The notes beneath the pieces were generated by a model. It saw only the letters and a program-made list of their open reading frames with translations. It made no database searches and had not been told where the DNA came from. This document shows, one piece after another, positions 13,325 through 32,300 of a stretch of 33,627 nucleotides of DNA. A program made the position numbers and the translations under genes. The DNA is taken from positions 1 through 33,627 of the IMG/VR virus record IMGVR_UViG_3300043823_000509, one strand, 5' to 3'. The DNA is from a virus. Position 1 is the stretch's first letter. The number at the start of each line of letters is the position of its first letter.

Positions 13325-14092
13325 CTATCTCTTGCGCTCTACAAATGATTGGTGGTCCGGGAACTGCTTGCCCCAGGCGTCTTCACCACGGAAATACCGT
13401 CGCCCCGCCCCATGGCTTTTAACCGTGTCTTCCTGGGTGCGTTGCCTGGAGAACTCACGATTTGTTTGGGACTCCATAAACAGTTGCTCTTCGGTAAAAA
13501 TATCTTCCGCAAACACTGGAGAAAACTGGTCTGCGAAGTACCTGGGTATCGTTATAAACGCCCCGACTGGCTCTCCCTTTTCGAAATGAATTGGGTAATT
13601 TGGTTCGGTGATTTTTAGGTTGAAAGTAAAGTCACGGCGGAGATTATCCGTCTCGACAACCCCCGTCATGTGGGTAATCCCACGCTTGAAAAAGTTTGGT
13701 GGGTTGATTGTCATTATGTTGACGCCCGGCGATGTCCGGTAATGCCAAAAATTTTGAACAGTAAGAATCCCAGACCCAAAGTGCCCTTCGTAAGCCTGAA
13801 CGGGCTGTTGTGGCTTGTCCCACTCAACCACAACGTCACTATCCAAATCTCCGCCATTCCATGTAACCGTGAAGTCGTAGGCTGAGCGCACAATAAAACC
13901 ATATTGATTGCCAATTGACAGGGGGAGGCAGTAGTAGAAATGAGAGTTGAACCACTCCCTCTTACGCTTTCCAGCCATCGGCTCAAGCAATTCTTCAATC
14001 GTCTCACGTGCTACGTAGGGCTCACGTATAACAACAAGGGCGTTTTGAGGAACTTCATTGCCGGGACTATTAATCGTGTTTTGCTGATTCAT
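13325..14092 (-). CDS. DUF6065-like protein, copy 2
   Basis: A 255-residue protein from ATG 14092, overlapping the previous gene by 23 bases. It is paralogous to that gene along its full length. Shared motifs in order are NSPGNEVP, W(F/Y)..HFY.CLP..IGNQYGF, F.V.WNGG, HFG.G..T..N.W..RT.PGVN.MT, PN.FKRG..MTGV(V/I)ETDNLRR.F.FNLKITEPN, F.KGE....FI..PRY and FPDHQSF at the end. The combination CLP..I.NQ.G..., HFG.G, RT.PG and 'G..ETD....F..N.K.T.P' is that of the DUF6065 family, as I recall it, found in bacteria and aquatic phages. The biochemical role is unknown. It is the last gene of the enzyme-like cluster. Confidence 0.75.
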   Translation of the reverse strand: MNQQNTINSPGNEVPQNALVVIREPYVARETIEELLEPMAGKRKREWFNSHFYYCLPLSIGNQYGFIVRSAYDFTVTWNGGDLDSDVVVEWDKPQQPVQAYEGHFGSGILTVQNFWHYRTSPGVNIMTINPPNFFKRGITHMTGVVETDNLRRDFTFNLKITEPNYPIHFEKGEPVGAFITIPRYFADQFSPVFAEDIFTEEQLFMESQTNREFSRQRTQEDTVKSHGAGRRYFRGEDAWGKQFPDHQSFVERKR

Positions 14093-14846
14093 TTCTTGGC
14101 TTCTTTATAAACGATTGGTGGTCGGGGAAAGGGTTTTCAAAAGCATCCACACCACGACGATAGTGATTCTCAGGGCTGTCTGGCGACTCCCGCAAGCGAC
14201 CGTGCTCTTCGCAGTTCATAAACTCTAAGTCAATTTGCTCCCTGCTGTAAATGTCGTTAGCGTAAGCAATAGAAAACTTGTCAACGTAATATCGTGGCAA
14301 AAGAATAAACGATGCCAGCATTTCGCCTTTTTGGAAGAAAATCTGGTGATTCGGTTCCGTTATTTTTAGATTGAAAATAAAGTTGCGACGCAAATTGTCT
14401 GTTTCGATTACCCCGGTCATCATATGGACCCCACGCTTGAAAACATTTGGTGTTTGAACGGTCATGAAATTTACCCCCGGCGGGGTACGCATCAACCAAC
14501 GGTTCTCAATCGTTATGGTCCCATAACCAAAATGGGACTTGATGTGCTGGATGTCACCAGAAACCGCTTCATCTATTGTGATTTTCGTGTCTTCGGGTTT
14601 GTTTCCCCCATTCCAAATAACCGAAAAATCTTTCTCTGCATAAAGAGCGAAGCCGTACTGGTTACCAATAAGCATCGGAAGACAGCGGTAAAAATGCGGG
14701 TCGTACCAATCCCGTTGCTTTTCCCCGGCAAGCGGTTTTAGGATATTTTCAATTCTCTCGATAGTTACGTCCGGGTCTTGGTAGGGGATTACGAGAAGTT
14801 TCCAATCCGGGACTTCATTTCCGGGCGAATTTATTAATTCCGTCAC
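14070..14846 (-). CDS. DUF6065-like protein, copy 1
   Basis: A 258-residue protein. The GTG at 14846 (MTELINSPGNEVPDW) overlaps the stop of the upstream oxygenase as GTGA, and its N-terminus aligns with the ATG start of its downstream paralogue, which supports the start. Motifs include FYRCLPMLIGNQYGFALY, IWNGGNKPED, SHFGYGTITIENRWLMRTPPGVNFMT, KRGVHMMTGVIETDNLRRNFIFNLKITEPN and KGEMLASFILLPRYYVD. The two copies are strongly similar in the central 150 residues but differ in their C-terminal 50, apart from FPDHQSF. DUF6065 proteins have no assigned activity. The genomic neighbours suggest action together with 2OG oxygenases. Confidence 0.75.
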   Translation of the reverse strand: MTELINSPGNEVPDWKLLVIPYQDPDVTIERIENILKPLAGEKQRDWYDPHFYRCLPMLIGNQYGFALYAEKDFSVIWNGGNKPEDTKITIDEAVSGDIQHIKSHFGYGTITIENRWLMRTPPGVNFMTVQTPNVFKRGVHMMTGVIETDNLRRNFIFNLKITEPNHQIFFQKGEMLASFILLPRYYVDKFSIAYANDIYSREQIDLEFMNCEEHGRLRESPDSPENHYRRGVDAFENPFPDHQSFIKKPRNESAKHD

Positions 14847-15427
14847 GACCGTCGGGACATTTTGTCAGACCGCTCCGGGTCGAAGCACCAAAACCCCGCA
14901 CACGTGTAGCGGGTTCCAGAGGTGATTTTGCTAACTCCGTGTAGGTATTCGTTGGTTCCGGTCCATGTAGCGAGCAGACCCGCTTGGGGGACTATAGCAA
15001 TTTCCTGATTTGGGAAATATGTGTTGCCACCTTCATAATCGGTGTTTAAATAAATAATTGAGGCGTAGCGTCTCCATGGATATGGGTGCTCTGTTCCATC
15101 TTCCAATTCTGCGTCGGCGTGCGGAGGTTGCGCCATGCCCGTCTTCCAACGAACAATTTGAAAAGAATCAGAGTAAACTTCGTCCTTCTCGTACACTTCT
15201 TTTATGAAAGCACGAACCCTTTTATGAATCCCGAAAAGGGTTTCATAAACTTTCTCATTCTTCGGGTCATCGGTTTTTTCAAGTGAATCGGCAAATAAAA
15301 CCCTGCCGTTCCAATTTGGGTCATCACCGCTCCAGTCCCAACGATTCTCGTTTGACTCGTCACGGGCGAAAGCCAAAAGTGTCCGAATCTCGTCCGAATT
15401 CAAAAAGTTCTTTTCAGCGTAAATCAT
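14843..15427 (-). CDS. 2-oxoglutarate/Fe(II)-dependent dioxygenase (prolyl hydroxylase-like)
   Basis: A 194-residue protein from ATG 15427, near the minimum for a double-stranded beta-helix oxygenase. The iron triad is visible: His103-x-Asp105 in PPHADAE and His163 in YLHGVSKI. Arg173 in SGTRY is the expected 2-oxoglutarate carboxylate ligand. The block YASIIYLNTDYEGGNTYFPNQEIAIVPQAGLLATW is typical of the P4Hc/2OG-FeII_Oxy_3 superfamily (SMART P4Hc, Pfam PF13640). The reaction would be hydroxylation of a substrate coupled to decarboxylation of 2-oxoglutarate. The substrate cannot be read from sequence. It overlaps both neighbours by 3-4 bases. Confidence 0.88.
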   Translation of the reverse strand: MIYAEKNFLNSDEIRTLLAFARDESNENRWDWSGDDPNWNGRVLFADSLEKTDDPKNEKVYETLFGIHKRVRAFIKEVYEKDEVYSDSFQIVRWKTGMAQPPHADAELEDGTEHPYPWRRYASIIYLNTDYEGGNTYFPNQEIAIVPQAGLLATWTGTNEYLHGVSKITSGTRYTCAGFWCFDPERSDKMSRRS

Positions 15428-16137
15428 TCTTCTTCTCCTAGCAAAAATCGCTTCTTTTTCCAGTGGTCTTTTTTATACATTGTTTTTTGCGCCCGCCACT
15501 GGTCATCATAGGACGGATTTGAAAACATAATTTCTTCAAAATGCGACCTGGTTACATGAACCAGTCCCGGCTTTTCCGTCATTGAAAAATTTTCCGTTTT
15601 GAACGGAATCACTTGGGCAAAAGGTGTACCCGCTGGTATGAGACCTTGGAAATCTTGCCTTATACAAAAGGCAATGTTTCCAGGTGGCATTTTGTAATAC
15701 CCATCGACAACCGCAGAAAACGTTATAAATGGTGTGTCAAATCGATTCATGGGTTGGGTAAAAAGCGCACTATACCCGTCGGGCACTTCAATAGCCAACT
15801 TGTTTTCCCAAGAAAAACGAACCCGCTGGTATCCCGCAGGTAGTGGCATATCCCCCGTTTCGTCGCCCGGGCGCTCATGTATCTCCGCTCCCGATGAAGA
15901 GGTGATTAGGAGACCTCCGGGCGCCCGCTCCACTAAATAATCTTCGTGGGTCAACAAAAGCCACCCTACTGTCAGCGCCTCCAAGAACGGGAAGCAGTGC
16001 TTCAGCGAGGGCACCGAGGCGCCATCATCTGAGTCAAACATCAAAGGCACACGCTTGTACCAATCCGGTATCGAGCGTGATGCAGAGGCTATGAGCGGGT
16101 CGTTGTGCCCTTCATTTTCATAATAAAAATTAATCAT
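15424..16137 (-). CDS. Phage protein of unknown function in oxygenase cluster, distantly DUF6065-like
   Basis: A 237-residue protein from ATG 16137. Motifs are IPDWYKRVP, LKHCFPFLEALTVGWLLLTHEDYLVER, RFSWENKLAIEVPDGYSALFTQPMNRFDTPFITFSAVVDGYYKMPPGNIAFCIRQDFQGLIPAGTPFAQVIPF and a basic C-terminus (KKDHWKKKRFL). Proteins of this type are frequent in marine T4-like and other aquatic phages and have no known activity. The order 'C.P...A...G', 'P.GYS.LF..P.NR', 'VVD......N..F.I' and 'GTP..Q.IPF' parallels that of the two DUF6065-like genes downstream (CLP..I.NQ.G, RT.PGVN.MT..PN, ETD...F.FN.KI, KGE....FI..PR), so a common fold is possible. It overlaps its neighbours by 4 bases on each side. Confidence 0.72.
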   Translation of the reverse strand: MINFYYENEGHNDPLIASASRSIPDWYKRVPLMFDSDDGASVPSLKHCFPFLEALTVGWLLLTHEDYLVERAPGGLLITSSSGAEIHERPGDETGDMPLPAGYQRVRFSWENKLAIEVPDGYSALFTQPMNRFDTPFITFSAVVDGYYKMPPGNIAFCIRQDFQGLIPAGTPFAQVIPFKTENFSMTEKPGLVHVTRSHFEEIMFSNPSYDDQWRAQKTMYKKDHWKKKRFLLGEEE

Positions 16138-16871
16138 TGCAACCAGTAGGGCTCAAAAGTCCCGTCGTTTATACTTTCTTGTACCCAAGTTTTTGTATTC
16201 GGGTGACGGCACCAAAAAGCCGTATTTACGTATCTGGTCCCGCTGGTGATTTGCCTGACGCCGTGTGGGTGTAAAAGGTCTCCACTAAAAATGACCAGAA
16301 GTCCCGCCTTGGGCTTAATTGAGAAGTCGCCATTCATCGGGAAATATATTTCCCCGCCTTCGAAATCGCCGTTTAGGTACAACATACTCGTGTAGTGCTT
16401 GTTCGTGTTGTAGCGCTTCCAAACGGGTTCTGCTGAAGCCGGGAAAAGACTCTCGTCATAATCGGGGGGCAAATCTGTTTCCCGATTGAAATCAGGGTCG
16501 ATGTAATCGATGTGCGGTTTTTGAGCAAGTGGGTAATACCACTTAACAACCTCCCAACTTTCTAAGAACAGTTGGTCGGGAGAGCGCCGGAAGAAACCCG
16601 CTACCTGAGCCTTCGATTTTTGCAAAATATCCCACGCCCGACCAACGAACTCGCCATTCGTCCCCTCGGATACAAGGCGGTGAAAATTGATGACCCTATC
16701 GTTCCATTGAGCCGAGTGCTCGGCAAAATGCTTGGGGTCCGGATAATTTTCCGGGGTTGCGTTTTGGATAGACCACAAACCAGTTTCGTTTGCAGTGCTG
16801 ATTAAATAATCGCACGTTTCCTGGTCAATGAAATTTTCAATAACCCTTACTTTTGGTTCTGTAAAGTCCAT
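16134..16871 (-). CDS. 2-oxoglutarate/Fe(II)-dependent dioxygenase (prolyl hydroxylase-like)
   Basis: A 245-residue protein from ATG 16871. The N-terminus (VRVIENFIDQETCDYLISTA) is the usual lead-in of P4H-type oxygenases. The catalytic set is His120-x-Asp122 (KPHIDYID), His203 in HPHGVRQITSGTRY and Arg213 as the 2-oxoglutarate ligand. HYTSMLYLNGDFEGGEIYFPMNGDFSIKPKAGLLVIFSG is a textbook P4Hc core. An insertion of about 30 residues follows the HxD motif (DPDFNRETDLPPDYDESLFPASAEPVWKRYNTN), compared with the 194-residue neighbour. All catalytic residues are present, so the enzyme is probably active. Substrate unknown; the cluster lies next to collagen-like and polyproline virion genes. Confidence 0.9.
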   Translation of the reverse strand: MDFTEPKVRVIENFIDQETCDYLISTANETGLWSIQNATPENYPDPKHFAEHSAQWNDRVINFHRLVSEGTNGEFVGRAWDILQKSKAQVAGFFRRSPDQLFLESWEVVKWYYPLAQKPHIDYIDPDFNRETDLPPDYDESLFPASAEPVWKRYNTNKHYTSMLYLNGDFEGGEIYFPMNGDFSIKPKAGLLVIFSGDLLHPHGVRQITSGTRYVNTAFWCRHPNTKTWVQESINDGTFEPYWLQ

Positions 16872-17434
16872 GCTTCCTCCGTCATCCGTCCTTGGGTTAC
16901 CTCCACATAATCGTGACCCTTGCTATAGAACCAATGCTCGGGCTCAACGAAATGGAAAAAAACCAAAGCAATATTTTTCCCCTCTGGCTCCACCATCATG
17001 GGGCGCCCATGTTCCTGGTCTTCACCGTAGAAAGCCAGTGCCTGATTGGGGTAGAGCGTGAAAGAGTCACCCTCCACGATAATGTCCCACGGGTCGGTTT
17101 GGTAAACACACAAATCAAGTGTGTAAGTACAAGCATTTGTATCTTTATGATGCAAAAGGTTGGGCATTGAGTCACCAACTTTTTCGTAGTGAGAAAAAAA
17201 ACAGTAACTTGGCAATAGCGTTGGACTATTAAAAACCTCCTTCGCAACCGGCAATAGAGAATCAAATGCTTTCATCACCAGTTGATTGCCTTCGCCGCCC
17301 ATTATGTACCTACCATAATTATCTTCGTAGTAGCAATCCCCAGCCCTCACTTGCTCAAGCAAACTGCTTGCAAGCATTTTGTGGGTATCATCATCTAAAA
17401 GGTTTTCAATAACTTTTGCTTTCAACTCACCCAT
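16847..17434 (-). CDS. 2OG/Fe(II) oxygenase-like protein, paralogue of 18009-18587
   Basis: A 195-residue protein from ATG 17434. It opens with the common lead-in (KAKVIENLLDDDTHKMLAS). The probable iron site is His96-x-Asp98 (LLHHKDTNACTYTLDLCVYQTDPW) with a distal His142 (EDQEHGRP). The downstream signature FFHFVEPEHWFYSKGHDYVEVTQGR..EEAW is nearly repeated in the paralogous gene two positions upstream, with CTYT.D.C.YQT.PW.(I/L)(I/V)VEG also shared. This is a divergent member of the 2OG oxygenase/cupin fold in which the 2-oxoglutarate arginine is less obvious; Arg144, two residues after the distal His in QEHGRP, is one candidate. It overlaps its neighbours by 13 and 25 bases. Confidence 0.78.
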   Translation of the reverse strand: MGELKAKVIENLLDDDTHKMLASSLLEQVRAGDCYYEDNYGRYIMGGEGNQLVMKAFDSLLPVAKEVFNSPTLLPSYCFFSHYEKVGDSMPNLLHHKDTNACTYTLDLCVYQTDPWDIIVEGDSFTLYPNQALAFYGEDQEHGRPMMVEPEGKNIALVFFHFVEPEHWFYSKGHDYVEVTQGRMTEEAWTLQNQK

Positions 17435-18036
17435 TGAACCACCGCATACCTTTCACCGCTTATTACTGGCTTGACTTCGTGTAAATACATAAAACCCGAG
17501 GGGAAGAGAATGGTTTGGTTCGCCCGTGGCTTCACGGTGACGCCAAACTTTGGAAAAACTATTTCCCCGCCTTCATAGTTTTCATTGGCGTAATGCACCA
17601 GCGAAACACGGCGAAGTTGACTTCTACCGTCATCAACATGAAGCGTAAATTTTTGCCCTTTACCGTACTTCAGAACACTGAAGTTTTCGTAAACCCCCAG
17701 CAATTCGGGGTTGTGGCGCCGGAAGTAATCTTCGTAGTACGGCAAAAACGCCTCCCGGAAAACATCGGAAAGTTTGAATCGGAAAAAATCGGGGTGCAAT
17801 TCCGGGGTGTATTCGTTTTCTGGGCGCTGAGCCGGTACGCTAAAAATTTTACAGTTTCGAGATACTTCATCAATTATTGCCGTGCCCGACTCGGTATAAA
17901 CCTTGGATGGCTCCCATAGGCTTCTCAAACCAACGGAGCGACGGTCTATCTCTGAAATAGCGTCCATAACGCCACCGGATGTGTTGTCGTAAAGAACAAT
18001 TCCAGGCGCTAATTCTGACGACGTGATTCCATCCAC
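17422..18036 (-). CDS. 2-oxoglutarate/Fe(II)-dependent dioxygenase (P4H family)
   Basis: A 204-residue protein if it starts at GTG 18036 (followed by DGITSSELAPGIVLYDN). A longer reading to 18099 would overlap the upstream gene by 91 bases and adds residues without family support, so the GTG is preferred. The triad is His133-x-Asp135 (TLHVDDGR) and His186 (MYLHEVKPVISGERY), with Arg196 binding 2-oxoglutarate. RRVSLVHYANENYEGGEIVFPKFGVTVKPRANQTILFPS is the P4Hc core. The N-terminal half carries an extra helical region (residues 20-110). The ELAPGIVLY lead-in is common in phage-encoded members. It sits between the two paralogous oxygenase-like genes. Confidence 0.87.
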   Translation of the reverse strand: MDGITSSELAPGIVLYDNTSGGVMDAISEIDRRSVGLRSLWEPSKVYTESGTAIIDEVSRNCKIFSVPAQRPENEYTPELHPDFFRFKLSDVFREAFLPYYEDYFRRHNPELLGVYENFSVLKYGKGQKFTLHVDDGRSQLRRVSLVHYANENYEGGEIVFPKFGVTVKPRANQTILFPSGFMYLHEVKPVISGERYAVVQWVS

Positions 18037-18587
18037 TCTTCTTCGCTCTTTCGTCCATGCACTACTTCGTAGTAGTCCCTCCCTTTGGTAAAAAACCAAT
18101 GGTCTGGCTCTGCATAATGGAAGAATACCATTGCCACGTGTTGCGTGTCTGGATTTGGGAACTGTGGGCGCCAGTGCCGTAGGTCACAACTTTGGAAGGC
18201 GAGCCCCTGGTTTTCTAGGAGAGTAAACTCCTGCCCCTCTACAACTAGACCCCATGGCTCCGTTTGGTAAAGACACATATCTATCGTGTAAGTGCAGGCG
18301 TTATCGTCCACGTGTAAGGGTAGTGCGGGTTTGTAAAAGCCTTTTGCTTCGTAGTGTACAAAGGAGGTATATGTTGGTCGGAGTGTCTTGCTACCAAATA
18401 TTCTCATTGCGTCCGTCAAGTAAAGTCTTGCAAAATTATCAATAATGTCGTTTGGTCCACCGGATGTCAGGTAGCGCCCGAGCAACGGATTGTATGGGAA
18501 GGTTTTTGCCAGCGGTTCCAGGCGGTTTCGAAGTATTGAGTAGTACTCGTCGGTAAAAACCTTGGGTATAAAAAGCGGACTATGCAC
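18009..18587 (-). CDS. 2OG/Fe(II) oxygenase-like protein, paralogue of 16847-17434
   Basis: A 192-residue protein. The start chosen is GTG 18587, which overlaps the upstream stop as TAGTG and has GGTGG just before it. A GTG at 18629 is possible but overlaps 43 bases and adds 14 unconserved residues. The motif LHVDDNACTYTIDMCLYQTEPWGLVVEG has His92-x-Asp94, and the distal ligand is probably His138 in CDLRHWRP. The C-terminal block FFHYAEPDHWFFTKGRDYYEVVHGRKSEEEW matches the paralogue closely. The pair look like an old duplication with a P4H-type gene between them. The substrate is unknown. Confidence 0.78.
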   Translation of the reverse strand: MHSPLFIPKVFTDEYYSILRNRLEPLAKTFPYNPLLGRYLTSGGPNDIIDNFARLYLTDAMRIFGSKTLRPTYTSFVHYEAKGFYKPALPLHVDDNACTYTIDMCLYQTEPWGLVVEGQEFTLLENQGLAFQSCDLRHWRPQFPNPDTQHVAMVFFHYAEPDHWFFTKGRDYYEVVHGRKSEEEWMESRRQN

Positions 18588-19189
18588 TAGCCACCGACAT
18601 GGTGAAAAACATTGCTCATCAGAATGCACGCCCTCTTTTGCGTCATGCTTGTAACTTCGTGCTCAAGCGGAAATGGAATGTACAAAACATCGCCTGGATA
18701 CAAAATTTCGTATTTCACACTGCCGTCTTCCCCATAAATTTGCCAGAAAGATGACCCGATGCAATTCCAGTGGATTGCATCATTGTGGTCACGGTGGCGG
18801 GCGCTACCGGACAAACCAGAACTATTAGTGCTGATAAGAGTGTAAATATCCGGCAAAAAACAACACCATAATGCCTTTTGAACCGTGTTCCAATACGGTC
18901 GGGATTCCGGGAAAAATTCTATGTGCTCTTCTAAGTTATTTGACAGGATATTACAAAACCCATTACTTCCAAGTAAGCGAACCGTAGTTGCCCCCGGATT
19001 TAGTGAGTTGCTTTTTTCGTTTTTATACTTTACGAATGCCTCCCACGATGGAGTGATGGGGAAAGCATTCCTAAATACCGTTACTTCTTGAATCTTGGGT
19101 TTGTGATTACCTACAAATTCACACAAATCATGGTTGTATTCTTCTGAAGGACCAAAATCAATTTCATAAGGCTTGGAAAGAATTGACAT
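18587..19189 (-). CDS. Cupin/JmjC-like putative oxygenase
   Basis: A 200-residue protein from ATG 19189, overlapping the stop of the Hint-domain gene as TGATG. The C-terminal half looks like a cupin or JmjC-type barrel: ARHRDHNDAIHWNCIGSSFWQIYGEDG, then YEILYPGDVLYIPFPLEHEVTSM. Likely metal ligands are His132-x-Asp134 (or the adjacent His-Asn-Asp) and the distal His177 in PLEHEV; 'PGDVLYIP....H.V' is a hallmark of JmjC/cupin hydroxylases. The N-terminal half (residues 1-100) is not recognised. Its place at the head of the oxygenase cluster, translationally coupled to the polyproline/Hint gene, suggests a related substrate, but this is inference. Confidence 0.78.
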   Translation of the reverse strand: MSILSKPYEIDFGPSEEYNHDLCEFVGNHKPKIQEVTVFRNAFPITPSWEAFVKYKNEKSNSLNPGATTVRLLGSNGFCNILSNNLEEHIEFFPESRPYWNTVQKALWCCFLPDIYTLISTNSSGLSGSARHRDHNDAIHWNCIGSSFWQIYGEDGSVKYEILYPGDVLYIPFPLEHEVTSMTQKRACILMSNVFHHVGG

Positions 19190-20271
19190 CAAAGGGCTGA
19201 ACTCTTAACTTGAGCATTGTTGTGTGTCAATATTCCACCGCCAATAAACAAGTCGTTTGGACCAACAGTTGTCATGAATACCATTGCATCTTCGGCAACG
19301 ATGTCAATCGTTTCGACGTTCTCTTCGGTCATCTGTTCTGTTAGGAAGATGTCTCCGACCTGAATCGACCATGCACGCACAAACTGCCAAATGCCTTGAC
19401 GGTTTATAAAAACAAAGTGCTCCCCCGTCAACTTGACACGATTGTTGAAACAAAAGTATCCAGATGCAGTAATGCCTTGGTTCGTATTGACAATAGTTGT
19501 GTCGTATGTGCAACTGCCAATATCCAAATCAGGTATTGACCAAATTGAGGCGGGGAACCATAGGGAAGCATTTTCCCCATTAGGGAATGTCGGGATGATA
19601 ATTGATTTCACGACATCGCCAGGGACAATGTTTTCAATGTTCTTGTATGTTCCGTCAGCCATCAAAATTGGTGAGCCTTCGACATAGCAACCACCACCGT
19701 GGGGAGGTGGTACATACGGGGGCGCAACGGGTGGTGGTACGTACGGTGGCACGTACGGTGGTGGCTTTGGTGGGGCGTAGGGTGGTGGGGCGTACGGAGG
19801 TGTGTACGGTGGTGGTACGTACGGAGGTGTATAAGGCGGTGGTGTGTACGGTGGTGGTACGTACGGAGGTGTATAAGGCGGTGGTACGTACGGAGGTGTG
19901 TACGGTGGTGGGATGTAATAGGGGACATCCGTACTGCTGTAAGCGCTTAGTGCACTAGTACCGGCATCATTGACCGCCTGCACTGCATACTCATATGTGT
20001 AGTTGGCGGTAAAACTGTAGGAAACAAGTGCGGGGCTGGAGGTGAAGCCAGTCTGGGTGGACACCACAGTACCAGTATTGATGCAATAAATGACTACGTT
20101 GTAACTAGTCGCTTTAGAACCACTTGGGTTCGGCGTGAAATAAACATACACTTGTGTTGTCGTGTAAATCGACGGTGTGCCAATCGTCGGCGTTAGCGGT
20201 TTTTGTAGTAAAAACTCGCCACCTTCATCGTCTGCCGACAACCCGCCACGAAAACCAACAATTGGACTCAT
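19189..20271 (-). CDS. Virion-associated protein: Fn3-like domain, Pro-Pro-Tyr rod and Hint self-processing domain
   Basis: A 360-residue protein from ATG 20271 with three parts. Residues about 25-115 resemble a fibronectin type III domain (PTIGTPSIYTTTQVYVYFTPNPSG..., YTYEYAVQAVNDAGTSALS). Residues 119-190 are a rod of PPYTPPYVPP-like repeats. Residues 195-351 form a complete Hint domain. Cys195 opens it (GGGCYVEGSPILMADG), followed by IENIVPGDVV, block B TGEH (Thr282-His285), and the C-terminal His350-Asn351 (GGILTHNN), leaving nine residues after Asn351. Hint domains perform N-to-S acyl shift and Asn cyclisation, giving cleavage, splicing or transfer of the N-terminal part to a nucleophile. 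Here there is no Cys, Ser or Thr after the Asn, so cleavage or ligation to another molecule is more likely than splicing. It is the last gene of the fibre region and is coupled to the first oxygenase gene. Confidence 0.87.
   Translation of the reverse strand: MSPIVGFRGGLSADDEGGEFLLQKPLTPTIGTPSIYTTTQVYVYFTPNPSGSKATSYNVVIYCINTGTVVSTQTGFTSSPALVSYSFTANYTYEYAVQAVNDAGTSALSAYSSTDVPYYIPPPYTPPYVPPPYTPPYVPPPYTPPPYTPPYVPPPYTPPYAPPPYAPPKPPPYVPPYVPPPVAPPYVPPPHGGGCYVEGSPILMADGTYKNIENIVPGDVVKSIIIPTFPNGENASLWFPASIWSIPDLDIGSCTYDTTIVNTNQGITASGYFCFNNRVKLTGEHFVFINRQGIWQFVRAWSIQVGDIFLTEQMTEENVETIDIVAEDAMVFMTTVGPNDLFIGGGILTHNNAQVKSSAL
19801..19884. repeat. Two exact 42-bp tandem repeats in the Pro-Pro-Tyr rod
   Basis: Bases 19801-19842 and 19843-19884 are identical, and less exact copies of the same pattern flank them (about 19690-19915). 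Each unit encodes 14 residues of PPY(T/V) repeat, so rod length can change in frame by slippage. Confidence 0.93.
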
Positions 20272-20298: not shown

Positions 20299-21168
20299 CT
20301 AGAACTGTGTTAGAGAAGCAAAAACTGTGTAGGTGGCATTCGCCGTTTTGGTAATGGTGAAGTTGTAGCCGTCGTATCCGTTTGCATAGCCCGACGTAGG
20401 GGCGGTTCCCTGTTGCCAATATATCGTTACGCCGGATGTCGTACCGTCCACCAAAACGCTTGTGCAGTAATAAGATGCGCCCGAAGACCCCTGGAGGACC
20501 ATGACCGCCACGGATAGCGACTGACCCGTCGACAAAAGGGCGTTTATAGTCCCCCCTCCCGATGTTCCGGTGAAGTTGAAGGTGAAGGTGCTGGTTGCGC
20601 TGGCTGTGTATACAATAAGCGAGCCAGAACCCGACAGATAGATGGGCTGGGTTCCGTTTGCGCCCGTTCCGTTGAGGTATGTGGCTTCAATCGGAGAGGT
20701 AAAAACCGTATTCAGGACAGTAGCCGGTACGCCCTGTGTTCCCTGGTTTCCTTGGTAGCCCTGCGCCCCTTGATTGCCCTGGGTTCCCTGAGAGCCCGTT
20801 GAACCCTGGACACCCTGAGTTCCTTGGCTTCCCTGAACGCCCTGGTATCCTTGATAACCCTGATAGCCCTGCGAGCCGGTTGTACCCGTCGAGCCCTGCG
20901 GACCCTGAAAACCTTGCGGTCCCTGGGCTCCAACCCCCTGAGGTCCCTGGCTCCCCTGTAGCCCTTGGTAACCCTGCGAGCCCTGTGTGCCCGATGAGCC
21001 AGTAGTGCCAGATACTCCTTGATACCCCTGGAAACCTTGGTTGCCCTGGGGTCCTTGATAGCCCTGCGTCCCTTGGTTGCCTTGCGAACCTTGCGAGCCA
21101 GAAGAACCTTGTGCGCCGACAAAAGCCGTTGTCCACTGAGAACCGTTGTAAGTTTTTAAGACGGACAT
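20299..21168 (-). CDS. Collagen-like fibre protein with conserved C-terminal head
   Basis: A 289-residue protein from ATG 21168 behind a strong CAGGAGAAATC site. The N-cap MSVLKTYNGSQWTTAFVGAQG is shared with two other genes in the window. Residues 18-148 are Gly-X-Y triplets with Gln at most Y positions, broken once near residue 79 (GVGAQG). Residues 150-289 form a beta-rich head ending in VDGT..VTIYWQQGTAPTSG....YNFTITKTANATYTVFASLTQF. The same head, with variations, ends the collagen-like proteins at 22224-23915 and 25200-26372. Collagen-like stalks trimerise, and the head probably nucleates trimerisation or binds a receptor. Expected location is a fibre on tail or head. Confidence 0.88.
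   Translation of the reverse strand: MSVLKTYNGSQWTTAFVGAQGSSGSQGSQGNQGTQGYQGPQGNQGFQGYQGVSGTTGSSGTQGSQGYQGLQGSQGPQGVGAQGPQGFQGPQGSTGTTGSQGYQGYQGYQGVQGSQGTQGVQGSTGSQGTQGNQGAQGYQGNQGTQGVPATVLNTVFTSPIEATYLNGTGANGTQPIYLSGSGSLIVYTASATSTFTFNFTGTSGGGTINALLSTGQSLSVAVMVLQGSSGASYYCTSVLVDGTTSGVTIYWQQGTAPTSGYANGYDGYNFTITKTANATYTVFASLTQF
20725..21117 (-). repeat. Collagen-like Gly-X-Gln triplet region
   Basis: About 43 consecutive nine-base units encode G-X-Q, G-X-T or G-X-S triplets. Codons vary between units, so identity is kept at protein level more than at DNA level. Confidence 0.93.
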
Positions 21169-25200: not shown

Positions 25201-26372
25201 TAGAACTTAACCACGCTTCCGATGACGACGTAACTGTTGGCGGTAGAGTTCTTGGAAATGGTGAATGTGTAGGTGGTGAGAAACGTCGAACCGGATGAAG
25301 GTGCGCTTCCGCCTTGCCAGTTAATCAAGAAACCCGTGCCGTCAATGTAAAAGTTACCGCTGTAGTAGAAGTTGTTAGGCGCATACACATTGAACACGAC
25401 GGTTATTTGCTGACCCGTGTTTAGCGTGTTGCCAAAAGTAACCGTATCTGTTGCACTGCCAGTTATGCCAAAGGTGAAGTTGGCGGTGGGATTATTCCAT
25501 ATCCAAGCGACGCTCGGTTGGTCGAGGATGCTAAGGACGTATGGTGAAGTACTTAGCGCCGTAGTTGCGTCTGAAACCACAGCCTCAAATGGTGATTGCA
25601 AAACGGGGTTGATTGTTGCCCCGCCCGAGATGCAAATCCACGTCGTCGAAGAACCGTTGTTGCTGGCGACCATGGTTATTGATTGGCGTGGGCTGAGAAT
25701 GTACGTCGTTCCAGGACCGCTCAGCACCAATCCGGGGAACCAAGCCACATCGCCTGATTGGGGTTGGATGTAAGCCTCACCAAAAAGGCTGGCACAATAG
25801 AGCGTGATGATTGAGCCCGTCGTTGCGCCTGTCGGCAATGAGTATGTAAATCCGGCGAATTCAATGTAATTGAATGTGTTGACGGCGAATGTACCGCTCG
25901 ATGTCCACGTAACAAGTGTCGTAGCCGGGGCGCCCTGTGCGCCCTGTGCGCCGTTGAAGCCTGCGACACCCTGTGCGCCCTGAGTACCTTGAGGACCCTG
26001 GAGACCCTGGGCTCCGATGCCAACATCGCCCTGATACCCTTGTGCCCCTTGCGGACCCTGCACGCCGGTCGCACCTTGTGTTCCTTGAGCGCCCTGTGCA
26101 CCCTGTGTACCGCTTCCACTTGCGCTGGTGTCAAGCCAGAGAAGCGTCGTGTCTGTTGGCGCTACGCCGTTAGAGGTGTAAACGCCTTGAGCACCTTGAT
26201 AGCCTTGACCGCCTTGGTTGCCCTGGTATCCCTGTGGACCTTGATACCCTTGTGTTCCCTGGTTTCCCTGGCTCCCCTGAGGTCCCTGGTTCCCTTGGTA
26301 CCCTTGATACCCCTGGGCGCCAACAATAGCGGTGACCCATGAGGTGCCGTTGTAATACTTAAGAAGACCCAT
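25200..26372 (-). CDS. Collagen-like fibre protein with two short collagen blocks
   Basis: A 390-residue protein from ATG 26372, overlapping the stop of the giant fibre gene as TAATG. The N-cap MGLLKYYNGTSWVTAIVGAQG is the shared one. Collagen triplets cover residues 18-63 and 88-149, split by GVYTSNGVAPTDTTLLWLDTS. A beta domain (150-255) with FAVNTFNYIEFAGFTYSLPTGATTGSIITLYCASLFGEAYIQ and SPRQSITMVASNNGSSTTWICISGG follows. The C-terminal head is the shared one, ending APSSGSTFLTTYTFTISKNSTANSYVVIGSVVKF. This is the shortest collagen stalk but the longest head of the three paralogues. It is probably a virion fibre. Confidence 0.87.
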   Translation of the reverse strand: MGLLKYYNGTSWVTAIVGAQGYQGYQGNQGPQGSQGNQGTQGYQGPQGYQGNQGGQGYQGAQGVYTSNGVAPTDTTLLWLDTSASGSGTQGAQGAQGTQGATGVQGPQGAQGYQGDVGIGAQGLQGPQGTQGAQGVAGFNGAQGAQGAPATTLVTWTSSGTFAVNTFNYIEFAGFTYSLPTGATTGSIITLYCASLFGEAYIQPQSGDVAWFPGLVLSGPGTTYILSPRQSITMVASNNGSSTTWICISGGATINPVLQSPFEAVVSDATTALSTSPYVLSILDQPSVAWIWNNPTANFTFGITGSATDTVTFGNTLNTGQQITVVFNVYAPNNFYYSGNFYIDGTGFLINWQGGSAPSSGSTFLTTYTFTISKNSTANSYVVIGSVVKF

Positions 26373-29300
26373 TAGCCCAATCTTTCAATCGTGATGTGCC
26401 CGCCAGTAGTGGCGTCCCCGTGGATACAGGTGACTCGGTAAACACGGAAGTTAGTTTTATCCATGATGTGGGCAATGATGACATCGCCACCAGATGAGAT
26501 GGTGTGAACCGCATTGATACTTGTCCAGGTTCCTGCCGTAAAGGAAATACCACTGGAGTTAGTCTGGGAAGTAATTGATGAGCCTGCCACAATTTCTATT
26601 GTCGTAACGTAAGCAGTAAACGTACCGGATACGGCAGAAGCCTGAATCAAACCCGCTGAACCACCGTTGGCGTAAATACGCACATTGAGGTTGTCCATTG
26701 CAAGGGAAGTATTGAAAGCGGTGTCAAGACCCGATTGGGATACTTGAGAAATGTAAGCATTGCCAGTGTTAACACTGCTGGAGATTGGTCCACCAACATA
26801 AAGACCGCCATTGCCCGAGTTGATTTCGGTGTTTACCTGTACGGCGGAACCGTCGGTGGCATTAATCCATAAGGTACCCGAACCCGAGTGAAGGTGAAGG
26901 TTGCCATCGTCAAACAAGTAGCCATTGTTGTTGAGGTTGATGGCATTGGTCGTAGGCAGATTACTTGTTACAGAAGCCTGCGGAAGACCAACAAGACCAT
27001 TGTCTGCAATAGAAAACACCGCAGAGGTGTATCCACTATTAAGGACTTCGAGACCGCCCGTAGGGTTGATACGAATATATTTGGTGCCGTTTGTAGCACC
27101 GGATGAAGTATTGGTCAGAGTGACCATGCCAGCAAAGTTGGTTCCGCCGTGACCATTATTTGAGTTAATTGTCAGCGGGTCTGATGTGCCACTAGATGTA
27201 AGCGTGTACGGAGCGGTGGGTGTCGCACCCTGCGTTCCTTGGTTGCCCTGGCTACCCTGTGCTCCTTGCGCTCCTTGCGAGCCTTGCGAGCCTTGGGAAC
27301 CTTGAGAACCAGTCGAGCCCTGAACACCTTGCGTACCCTGCGGTCCGGTCGAACCCTGGAATCCTTGGTTGCCCTGTGAGCCGGTTGCACCTTGCGTACC
27401 CTGAGTGCCTTGACTTCCCTGTGTGCCCTGTGGACCTACGCCCGGAACAGCCGTCGCTGTTTCGTCATACCAGAGAAGTGAGGTGTCGCTCGGCGCAATT
27501 CCATCATCGGAAACGTAGAGTCCTTGGACTCCTTGGTGACCTTGCGTTCCTTGGAAACCTTGGTTTCCCTGGGTGCCTTGAGTGCCTTGGTATCCCTGCG
27601 GTCCTTGATACCCCTGGGTCCCTTGAGCACCCGTCGAGCCTTGCGAACCGGTGGCTCCCTGGACGCCCTGCGTACCTTGGGAGCCGGTTGCACCTTGAGC
27701 GCCGGTAGAGCCCTGGGCTCCTGTTGCACCTTGGTTGCCTTGCGGTCCCTGGTAGCCCTGGTTGCCCTGGGTTCCTTGGTTCCCCTGCAAGCCAGTTGCA
27801 CCCTGATTGCCTTGGTACCCCTGAAATCCTTGGTTTCCCTGCGAGCCAGTGGAACCTTGTGCCCCGGTAGAGCCTTGCGAACCGGTTGAACCCTGGAGTC
27901 CTTGGAATCCTTGGAATCCTTGGTGTCCCTGAGTTCCCTGGTTACCTTGTGGTCCAAGTTGTGTGTACATTACTTGAGTAATGTTTGCAATAACCGAAGG
28001 CGTTGCGGGGTAGTTTGAACCGGCGACAGAGGCAAGAAGCGTTACGCCAGTACTGGGCGTCATCCAGTAAATTTCGATGTAGTCATTCGGGTTGGCTGAA
28101 GTACCAACAAAAGAAGACGTGTAGATAATCTGCCCGGCAACGTTTCCCGACTTGGCGGGGACGGTAACAATGTCATTACTGTTTCCCCAGTCACTACCCA
28201 TGTAGCGAATCCAAACATTTACGTTTTCGTTGGAGTTCGAAGAGTTGTTGAACTGAAGCGTAAATTGAAATTGATACGTGGCAACATTTGCCATGATGAT
28301 GTGCGAACTACTGCCGAGCGAAACGCCGTTTGCTCCATATGTTCCATCAATGGTTACAGCAGTTGGTGTGTTTGCGGTTGCGCTCTGAGTTACATCACTG
28401 TAAAAAGCACCGTAATAACCGAGCGCTCCACCTGCTCCAGTTGCTCCCTGGGCACCCTGCGGTCCAACACCAGCGACTTCAGCAAAGTCAATATTGTCGG
28501 TACCAATTTTAATTGCGCCGTCACTATTGCTTCCGTAAATGTACTGAACCCAGGACGAATTTGCTTGCGTTGTTCCGTCGGTAACGAACAAGTAGTCACC
28601 CTGTTCAACCTGACCTTCCAAATGGTTGTCGTAGTCTGTGGCACGTGTCAATACTGCTGATGTTGTGCTGTTACCGCCAGTTGTAAGCGTGTAAATACCA
28701 TTTTGGCGATTGTCGGTTTGGTTCTTGACCAAAATTCTTTGTCCGACAAGCGGGGTGTAGCCGTCAATAGTTAATGTCCCAACGGCAGACATCGTTAGCG
28801 TAGCGCCGACTCCATATCCGTTGTCCGCATCAGCGGTACCAGCGGTGTAAGTTGCGGCAAGATTTGCAGTAGTTGCAACAACGGCAGATTGGTGGGCATT
28901 GTTAGAGCCAGAAACGCCTTGGTACCCTTGATTACCTTGATAACCCTGGTTTCCTTGGTAACCCTGAAATCCCTGCGTACCTTGAGAACCAGTCGAGCCC
29001 TGGTAGCCCTGAAATCCCTGATTTCCCTGAACGCCTTGAGTTCCTTGCGTACCCTGCGCTCCTTGTGAGCCGGTCGAGCCTTGTGAGCCGGTCGAACCCT
29101 GTGAGCCAGTCGTACCCTGGTTACCTTGCGTACCTTGGGCGCCCGTTACGCCTTGGTACCCTTGGAATCCTTGGTAGCCTTGGGGACCCTGTGCGCCGGT
29201 TGAACCCTGCGAGCCGGTTGAACCCTGAACGCCCTGAACGCCCTGATACCCCTGGTAGCCTTGAGCGCCAGTTGAACCTTGCAAGCCAGTTGAACCCTGG

Positions 29301-32300
29301 TTGCCCTGGTACCCCTGGGTTCCTTGGACCCCTTGATAACCCTGCGAACCCTGGGCTCCGGTAGAGCCGGTCGAGCCTTGGGCTCCGGTTGTTCCTTGGT
29401 TACCCTGCGTTCCCTGAAAACCCTGGTACCCCTGGAATCCCTGGTTCCCCTGATTACCTTGCGTACCCTGGAAGCCCTGTGAACCTTGTGCACCAGTCGA
29501 ACCAGTTGAACCCTGGTATCCCTGGAAACCTTGACTGCCCTGAGCACCAGTTGAGCCCTGTGCACCAGTTGAGCCCTGCGAGCCAGTATCACCAGTCGAG
29601 CCTTGGTATCCCTGGAAACCTTGGTTCCCTTGGGTCCCTTGGAATCCTTGTGTTCCCTGTGCGCCAGTCGCCCCGGTTGCGCCCTGGCTTCCTTGGAAAC
29701 CCTGATTTCCCTGGAAGCCTTGTGCACCCGTCGAGCCCTGGGCTCCGGTGGAGCCCTGTGACCCAGTCGAGCCCTGACTACCCGTTGCCCCCTGTGAGCC
29801 GGTTGTGCCTTGAGCGCCAGTAGAACCCTGAGCGCCAGTAGCACCCTGGAAGCCCTGATAACCCTGATTTCCTTGAGAGCCCTGGAAGCCCTGGCTTCCC
29901 TGTGCGCCTGTTGAGCCCTGAACTCCGGTAAGACCAGAAAGTTGTAGGCGCCATGTTGCGCTTGGGTCTGAAACTGCTGTTCCGCCGAACCCGGTTACAA
30001 AGAAATAGAAAGAAGACGAGTTTGGAAGAAGAGTTACTTCACCCGTGTAGTAAAAAGACGAGCCAATAGTTTGGTCTACGAGCCTAACGATATCTCCGAC
30101 CTGAAAGGCGCCTGTTCCATTCGGTGCGTCGAGGTTCCACGTGCCGTTTATGTACGTCGCCCCGCCAGAAGTTGTTTGCAGAGAAGTATCGCAAGTGATT
30201 CCGTCGTAACTTGCGCCCTGAAAACCCTGGTTGCCTTGGTAGCCCTGATGTCCCTGCGTTCCCTGAGAGCCCGTCGCACCTGTCGAACCCTGGTATCCCT
30301 GGTTTCCTTGTGTTCCCTGTGAGCCAGTTGCACCGGTCGAACCTTGGACGCCCTGGTACCCCTGGTTGCCTTGGAGACCCTGTGACCCAGTTGCGCCAGT
30401 TACGCCCTGGAAACCCTGGACCCCCTGGACCCCCTGGGCGCCTTGCGTGCCCTGACTCCCAGTTGAGCCTTGATATCCCTGAGGACCCTGGAAGCCCTGG
30501 GGACCGACCTCTCCTGCGAGGTTGACAATCCAACTACCAAGTTGGTTGCTGTAGGAGTTGGTGTAGGTAACAACAATTTCCAAAGCGCCAGAAGAAGAAT
30601 CGTACCCGACAATTTGTCCATTGATAAAAATGCTACGGTCATCGACGTAGCAAATTGTTACTGCTTCACCGAGGCTGTATGCGAGATTTGCACCTACCGT
30701 GAGCGTCGCAACCGAATTGAGCGAGTAGGAACTCAGTGTGAGCAAGGTTGTTGACGAAGTCAGATAGCGGTCACTTTGTGGACCTTGGTTACCCTGATAT
30801 CCCTGCGAGCCCTGATATCCCTGCGAACCTTGCGAGCCGGTTGCACCTTGGTACCCCTGCGAGCCCTGCGAGCCCGTCGAACCCTGAACGCCCTGGTTGC
30901 CCTGAGCCCCCTGGAACCCTTGATTTCCCTGAGCCCCCTGGTAGCCCTGATTGCCTTGCGAACCCTGGGCGCCAGTCGCCCCCGTGGAGCCCTGCACGCC
31001 CTGAGAGCCCGTGACACCCTGCGGTCCCGTGCCCCCAGTACTTCCGACACTACCTTGGAAGCCCTGGAAGCCCTGAAAGCCCTGGTTCCCCTGTGAGCCA
31101 GTAGTTCCCTGGAAGCCCTGAACCCCCTGGAAGCCTTGGTAGCCCGTCTGACCCTGCGAACCCTGCGGTCCGGTGAATCCTTGCGAGCCCTGTGAACCGG
31201 AAGCACCTTGGGGTCCTTCGAGACCGGGAGAACCCGTTAAGCCGGTTGCGCCCTGGGCACCCTGAACGCCCTGGAATCCCTGGAATCCTTGGTCTCCCTG
31301 ATAGCCCTGGAGACCCGTCACGCCCTGTGCGCCTTCGACAGCGAGAACCGCCCAGTATGACGGATTCGTGTCGGGCTCTTTGTTTGTGGATGCTTGCGAG
31401 GCGAAGTAAGACGAGCCGTTGTATGAGACAGTATCACCTATCACATAAGCAGTAGTACTCTGCCATCCTCCAGTGTAGAAAAAGCCAGGACCTTGATTTC
31501 CTTGATAGCCCTGAGGTCCCTGTTCACCAGAAAGGTACAACCATAGGTACTCGGATGTCAGTGTTCCGTAAATGCTAATTATGTAGACGTTTACAACTGT
31601 TGTACCTTGACCCAAGTACCCGGTTGCATCGTCGATTGAATCGACATTTCCAAAGGCGTAGTTAGACCCATCTTGCCAAATCAAAACTGTTTGCCGGGAT
31701 ATAAAAGCCGAAGCGTCAACCGCCCCAAATCCGTATGTGCCCCCAACCGTTATGGATACAGAAGGGTCGTGGAAGATTTGGGTATAGGCGGACGAACCCT
31801 GTGGTCCCTGTGGTCCTTGGAACCCCTGATAACCCTGGTTCCCTTGATAGCCCTGGACACCCTGCGAGCCCTGATATCCCTGCGTGCCGGTAGAGCCCTG
31901 CGAGCCAGTTACGCCTTGGTTGCCTTGGAAGCCTTGGTTACCCTGGGGACCCTGGTAGCCCTGGGAACCTTGGACACCCTGAAGACCCTGGAAGCCCTGA
32001 AAACCCTGGAATCCCTGGTTTCCCTGGAATCCCTGGAAGCCCTGCGGTCCCGTTATGTTCCCAATCCCGTACCACGTTGAGTTACTGGAGTTGTACTGCC
32101 AAACAGAACCGTCGGTTGTCTTGAGGTAAAAATCGCCATTCTGGATTCCGGGAATTGTTGACAGTGGGTTGCTCGTCCCCTCGAACCACTCGGTTCCACG
32201 GTTACCCTGATTGCCTTGATTGCCCTGATTGCCCTGGTAGCCCTGATTTCCTTGGACGCCCTGAAAGCCTTGAAAGCCCTGGTTGCCTTGCGACCCAGTT

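Follow-up and report, generated by a model that had tools for sequence, protein, structure and literature searches.

Why would a tailed phage carry a run of putative 2-oxoglutarate (2OG)/Fe(II) oxygenase genes immediately after the gene that encodes a proline-rich rod? We analysed this question in IMG/VR virus record IMGVR_UViG_3300043823_000509, from a phage described as freshwater-type; the entire record of 33,627 bases is referred to here as the window. Nine tandem, overlapping genes (13325–19192, minus strand), named ox1 to ox9, lie directly behind a rod/Hint gene (19189–20271). The original prediction saw in them a nine-gene oxygenase cluster that might hydroxylate the rod. We favour, at a probability of about 0.64, a module that would hydroxylate a virion fibre and, in some relatives, glycosylate it as well, with the proline-rich rod as its putative substrate.

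The genes, in the order in which they follow one another on the minus strand, are:

19189–20271, minus strand: protein of 360 amino acids (aa) with an fn3-like domain, a Pro-Pro-Tyr rod (residues about 119–190) and a Hint domain; candidate substrate
18587–19192, minus strand: ox9, JmjC/cupin-like putative 2OG oxygenase; JmjC_2 (PF08007), E 5.4e-4, under the cut-off
18009–18629, minus strand: ox8, member of a family here called X; phrog_2954 (annotated ferrochelatase); predicted 2OG-oxygenase fold
17422–18099, minus strand: ox7, prolyl-4-hydroxylase (P4H)-type 2OG oxygenase, partner of X; PF13640, E 1e-16
16847–17434, minus strand: ox6, second X-family paralogue, 40% identical to ox8; phrog_2954, E 6e-11
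16134–16871, minus strand: ox5, 2OG oxygenase of P4H/prolyl-3-hydroxylase type; PF13640, E 2.7e-9
15424–16137, minus strand: ox4, DUF6065-like, grouped with a dUTPase-fold family; phrog_7084, E 1.7e-25
14843–15427, minus strand: ox3, P4H-type 2OG oxygenase; PF13640, E 8.8e-9; HAD..H..R
14070–14846, minus strand: ox2, DUF6065 protein; PF19541, E 3.4e-38
13325–14092, minus strand: ox1, DUF6065 protein, dUTPase-like fold by prediction; PF19541, E 1.9e-44

With the likeliest starts, the overlaps measure 1, 1, 28, 13, 25, 4, 4, 4 and 23 bases, and the stop codon of the rod/Hint gene is fused with the ATG of ox9 in TGATG. This confirmed the predicted overlaps of a few to about 28 bases and the predicted coupling of the first cluster gene to the rod/Hint gene. 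In two relatives, L058 (a 95-kb contig) and L063, the rod/Hint gene and the genes that follow keep the order of the window, with ox8 missing in L058; the arrangement is therefore not a product of chance. The cluster probably comprises six putative 2OG oxygenases (three PF13640 members, two X members and one JmjC-like protein) and three DUF6065-type genes. An HxD..H motif is read in all six oxygenases and three exceed the PF13640 cut-off, in agreement with the five 2OG/Fe(II) oxygenases (three P4H-type, two divergent) and one JmjC-like protein proposed originally. The nine tandem genes thus stand, but not as nine oxygenases: the count was corrected because the three DUF6065-type genes, which share no HxD motif in alignment, are not oxygenase-like.

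Pairing of family X with proline-rich genes

To survey the neighbourhood of these enzymes, we collected X relatives from IMG/VR, obtaining 53 loci in a first scan and 417 matches in a second profile scan, of which 80 were kept. Upstream sequence of at least 2 kb was available for 82 of 117 X loci; grouping these at 70% X identity resulted in 26 lineages. Open reading frames (ORFs) were counted as proline-rich when they contained at least 11 prolines in 30 residues and ended within 3 kb upstream of X on the same strand. Such an ORF was present in 23 of 26 lineages (65 of 82 loci). As controls we used anchors in collagen-type tail loci that carry no oxygenase, of which 26 among 660 were positive (3.9%), and distant anchors within the X loci, with 0 positive among 110. 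The pairing came to light in the loci of the first scan; the six lineages that the second scan alone found replicated it (6/6). The original prediction had named a co-occurrence survey as a test, and relatives that carry the module without a proline-rich partner proved not to be the rule. The putative action of the oxygenases on a proline-rich virion rod gains from this pairing, against 3.9% and 0% in the controls, and loses from two lineages without a partner.

Repeat units differ between lineages ((PT)n, PPVA, VTP, PPPV, PPYV, PAPSPAPP and PTPQ), so that proline content rather than repeat sequence is kept. Proline codons are mixed in most arrays, which are therefore not simple DNA repeats. 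These features bear on the idea that the linkage reflects only the descent of one ancestral fibre locus, with rod and enzymes functionally independent. All X loci do share ancestry, and a Zn-finger-like small gene (DUF6171-like) accompanies the module in 19 of 26 lineages. However, a complete turnover of repeat units with proline-richness retained is unexpected without selection joining rod and enzymes, and we regard descent alone as a very improbable explanation.

The common module order in relatives is proline-rich fibre, small four-Cys protein, P4H and X. The small protein, of ~80 aa and conserved (for example L311 2396–2632 and L337 4611–4856), matches DUF6171 just below the cut-off as well as phrog_13558; the window gave no match to it.

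Collagen-like and glycine-rich fibres as possible alternative substrates

Other fibre genes lie close by. Major tail proteins, a tail assembly chaperone, a tape measure protein and neck/connector families identify a tailed phage, of which the window is probably a fragment. On the minus strand, collagen-like and glycine-rich genes are followed by the fn3/rod/Hint gene, the nine overlapping genes, and neck and tail genes. Four collagen-like proteins with Gly-X-Gln repeats (2400, 390, 563 and 289 aa) and two glycine-rich proteins are encoded upstream of the cluster, including:

26372–33574, minus strand: collagen-like tail-fibre protein, 2400 aa; PHROG tail fibre families
20299–21168, minus strand: collagen-like fibre protein, 289 aa; G-X-Q triplets with Pro mainly in the X position; second candidate substrate class

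In the 2400-aa protein, Y is Gln in 325 of 426 counted G-X-Y triplets.

The presence of these genes raises the possibility that the enzymes modify collagen-like or glycine-rich fibres of the same virion instead of the proline-rich rod. Marine X relatives in S-SM1, Bellamy, HTVC023P and HTVC008M, which lie near glycine-rich fibre genes and no proline-rich ones, point in the same direction, as do collagen-like ORFs somewhere in the locus in 13 of 26 cases. Within 3 kb upstream of X, by contrast, collagen-like ORFs occur in 1 of 26 lineages and glycine-rich ORFs in 0 of 26, against 23 of 26 for proline-rich ones, and any of these oxygenases is found in only 5 of 115 collagen-type loci. Animal collagen P4H, moreover, hydroxylates Pro in the Y position, which in the window's collagen-like repeats is Gln, with Pro mainly in X. 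We consider it unlikely that these fibres, and not the rod, are the target. ORFs beside the module that seemed glycine-rich were rejected, since they proved to be proline-rich genes read in antisense.

The marine neighbourhoods suggest that the theme of the whole family may be modification of repetitive fibres, and that the branch to which the window belongs is paired with proline-rich rods.

P4H-like enzymes and the X family

ox3, ox5 and ox7 score 36.6, 38.3 and 62.0 bits against PF13640 (curated cut-off 27). A distal Arg follows the HxD..H motif in these three and in ox9, and among 60 distinct P4Hs that accompany X, a motif search found HxD..H..R in 59. The solved structures nearest to ox7 include bacterial P4Hs (E 4.5e-6), and those nearest to ox5 include prolyl 3-hydroxylase 1 (E 7.8e-8). 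The P4H of Chlamydomonas has been shown to bind (Ser-Pro)5 (PMC9676403). ox9 reaches 19.9 bits against PF08007 (cut-off 22). Searching for ox9 by tblastn against phages and by a viral scan returned no relatives; these were obtained by synteny instead, and in an alignment of 15 sequences H133, D135, H178 and R187 are invariant.

Pfam and PHROG profile searches matched ox6 and ox8 to phrog_2954 ("ferrochelatase") only. An AlphaFold2 model of ox8 (pLDDT 89.6) matched 2OG-oxygenase folds with Z 14–16.7, including HIF and other prolyl hydroxylases, and thus shows a predicted double-stranded beta-helix fold with HxD..H. Across the X family, H106, D108, H152 and R154 (ox8 numbering) are invariant. 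ox8 has no Arg or Lys ~10 residues past the distal His; the invariant Arg154 stands two residues after His152.

Neither the window's X proteins nor two S-SM1 "ferrochelatases" matched a ferrochelatase domain in Pfam up to E 1. The cyanophage and pelagiphage phrog_2954 "ferrochelatases" group with X, with an hhalign probability of 98.4 to the S-SM1 protein, and adjoin 2OG oxygenases in several records; in S-SM1, phrog_2954 is located at L187 8148–9264. From these profile and model comparisons, the phage "ferrochelatase" phrog_2954 appears to be the X oxygenase family. X seems virus-specific: a scan of bacterial genome contigs, which depends on short peptide patterns, found no relatives.

One locus, L043 (8653–16193), carries X and several P4H-type genes far from any proline-rich gene; by eye, an adjoining long ORF resembles catalase-peroxidase, so that the family also occurs in another setting.

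DUF6065-type genes

ox1 and ox2 exceed the PF19541 cut-off with 152 and 132 bits and also match phrog_7084, the only family that ox4 matches, as no Pfam match was found for it. The three were aligned, ox4 being 13% identical to ox1. The description of all three as DUF6065-like or related thus held, though not their place among oxygenases. In an AlphaFold2 model of ox1 (pLDDT 90.2), all 50 matches listed were dUTPases (Z 9.1–10.0; 115–139 residues aligned); ox2 and ox4 are tied to this fold via the alignment alone. GVVxxD and KGxP stretches resemble, by eye, dUTPase motifs 3 and 4. On the strength of the ox1 model, a dUTPase-like fold and some accessory role are probable for DUF6065 proteins, so that PF19541, a Pfam family without known function, may gain a fold.

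In haloarchaeal tailed viruses, a DUF6065-like gene (L188 7905–8738, HRTV-14) is located close to adhesin and tail fibre genes; this neighbourhood gave no functional clue.

A glycosyltransferase in relatives

PF11397 is presumably the family description of GT60. A PF11397-like gene lies near X in 22 of 119 X loci, compared with 0 of 120 collagen-type loci and 8 of 120 (PT)n loci; seven of these genes were checked by Pfam. Where present, it often comes straight after X; in L321 and L323 it directly follows P4H and X. No PF11397 match was found in the window or in the records of six relatives, but the control genomes gave none either, so that this search does not demonstrate absence. GT60 includes the Skp1 hydroxyproline N-acetylglucosamine (GlcNAc)-transferase and a Trypanosoma polypeptide GlcNAc-transferase (PMC6939170). 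The acceptor of the phage enzyme could be hydroxyproline or Thr.

In another alternative, the oxygenases target host or small molecules (the 2-oxoglutarate level, nucleotides, DNA or surface glycans) and their adjacency to fibres reflects gene-exchange hotspots in tail loci. Cyanophage 2OG oxygenases have been read as serving 2OG/nitrogen control or DNA repair (PMC3037559), and phage 2OG oxygenase and "ferrochelatase" genes more generally as metabolic, again for 2OG control or DNA repair (PMC3037559; PMC9602691; PMC11561400). The dUTPase-like predicted fold of DUF6065 would suit this alternative, as would L040-type loci, in which X and P4H lie outside a fibre context. It does not, however, predict a pairing with proline-rich genes of varying repeat, nor a PF11397 glycosyltransferase beside X, and we judge it improbable. 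DNA modification of the TET/JBP kind was also considered as a function; no sequence evidence for it was found.

The rod/Hint protein and the proposed mechanism

The rod of the window's protein (residues 119–190) begins YIPPPYTPPYVPPPY and uses all four Pro codons. Its fn3 and Hint matches are weak; fn3 is above the cut-off in the relative L326. We aligned five rod/Hint proteins (window, L058, L063, L326 and L339), the relatives being 48–67% identical to the window copy. The rods vary in length and composition with proline-richness kept, while the Hint Cys195, TGxH and C-terminal HN are invariant.

The Hint domain begins immediately after the rod, and HN lies ~10 residues from the C-terminus, with the motifs kept in relatives. 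Because of this placement, Hint self-cleavage of the 19189–20271 product could free the rod or attach it.

In the hydroxylation module that we propose, the P4H-type enzymes (ox7 being the likeliest, perhaps with ox3 and ox5) and the X oxygenases would use Fe(II), O2 and 2-oxoglutarate. During late infection, they would hydroxylate Pro, and possibly also Tyr, Thr or Val, in the rod of the tail-associated fn3/rod/Hint protein encoded just upstream. Hydroxylation would stiffen or stabilise the polyproline-II rod and supply attachment points, and in some relatives the PF11397 glycosyltransferase could add GlcNAc to hydroxyproline or Thr. Gene order, catalytic motifs, predicted folds and the recurrent pairing are observed; we infer the enzyme activity, the rod as its substrate, the residues changed and the benefit.

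Several observations weigh against this module, in addition to the marine X relatives described above. The proline-rich criterion was fixed after the first loci had been inspected, and the X loci are related by descent, so that the lineage counts are not fully phylogenetically independent and p-values calculated for the pairing and for the glycosyltransferase association serve only as a guide. Two lineages, of the L013 and L040 types, have no proline-rich gene; L027 falls under the threshold, yet contains SPVSPV repeats. Taken in the reverse direction, 114 loci that encode a (PT)n repeat include only 7 with any of the oxygenases, and the enzymes can therefore not be expected wherever proline-rich repeats occur. 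The substrate-contacting Tyr140 of Chlamydomonas P4H is replaced by Phe in 55 of 59 X-linked P4Hs, the position being equated via motif spacing, and ox7 likewise has Phe at the equivalent spacing. Because of this replacement, we describe ox3, ox5 and ox7, as classified from sequence, as P4H-like and claim no strict P4H identity. Finally, PMC7019647 cites unpublished amino-acid data in which virions of the chlorovirus PBCV-1 are reported to be without hydroxyproline despite the viral P4H.

Comparison with known systems

Plants and algae hydroxylate proline-rich wall proteins, and hydroxyproline is otherwise known from collagen and from plant and algal walls. In the Baltic, viral P4H has been reported at 62% of water-column stations, and its viral use was called cryptic (PMC9301287). 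Our literature search, made at the level of titles and abstract openings, found none that links phage P4Hs with proline-rich fibres. That two virus-specific oxygenases steadily accompany proline-rich fibre genes offers a testable answer to the cryptic use, namely hydroxyproline in phage fibres. Phage "ferrochelatase", an annotation that recent marine virus ecology has used as an auxiliary metabolic gene (PMC11561400), would have to be read differently too, since phrog_2954 belongs with the X family of predicted 2OG-oxygenase fold. We give an even chance to a wider reading, in which many aquatic phages build hydroxyproline-rich, partly glycosylated, extensin-like rods via a virus-specific P4H and X module with PF11397 or JmjC-like additions, and part of the viral "P4H" and "ferrochelatase" metabolic genes are fibre-modifying.

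The same two families occur together in T4-like cyanophages and pelagiphages, as phrog_61 (2OG-Fe(II) oxygenase) and phrog_2954, in several records beside tail-fibre genes (PMC11561400). Their adjacent fibres are Gly-rich, however, their X relatives are distant, and the literature reads them as metabolic. PBCV-1 also has a viral P4H, with peptide substrates according to the title of Eriksson et al. 1999 (cited in PMC9301287 and PMC7019647), but is a eukaryotic algal virus. The Skp1 pathway of Dictyostelium and Toxoplasma (PhyA and Gnt1) likewise combines a P4H with a GT60-type GlcNAc-transferase; it is eukaryotic and acts on a single proline, whereas the phage-side glycosyltransferase was found in relatives only, not in the window. 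A further comparison is with the P4Hs of Chlamydomonas and plants that act on hydroxyproline-rich glycoproteins and extensins. The phage enzymes differ from these in adjoining a fibre gene, in their several paralogues with X, JmjC-like and DUF6065 companions, in a substrate that we infer and in the Tyr-to-Phe change in X-linked P4Hs. They share with them the P4H-type double-stranded beta-helix enzymes, the extensin-like Ser/Thr-Pro or Pro-Pro-Tyr repeats and, in some phage relatives, a glycosyltransferase.

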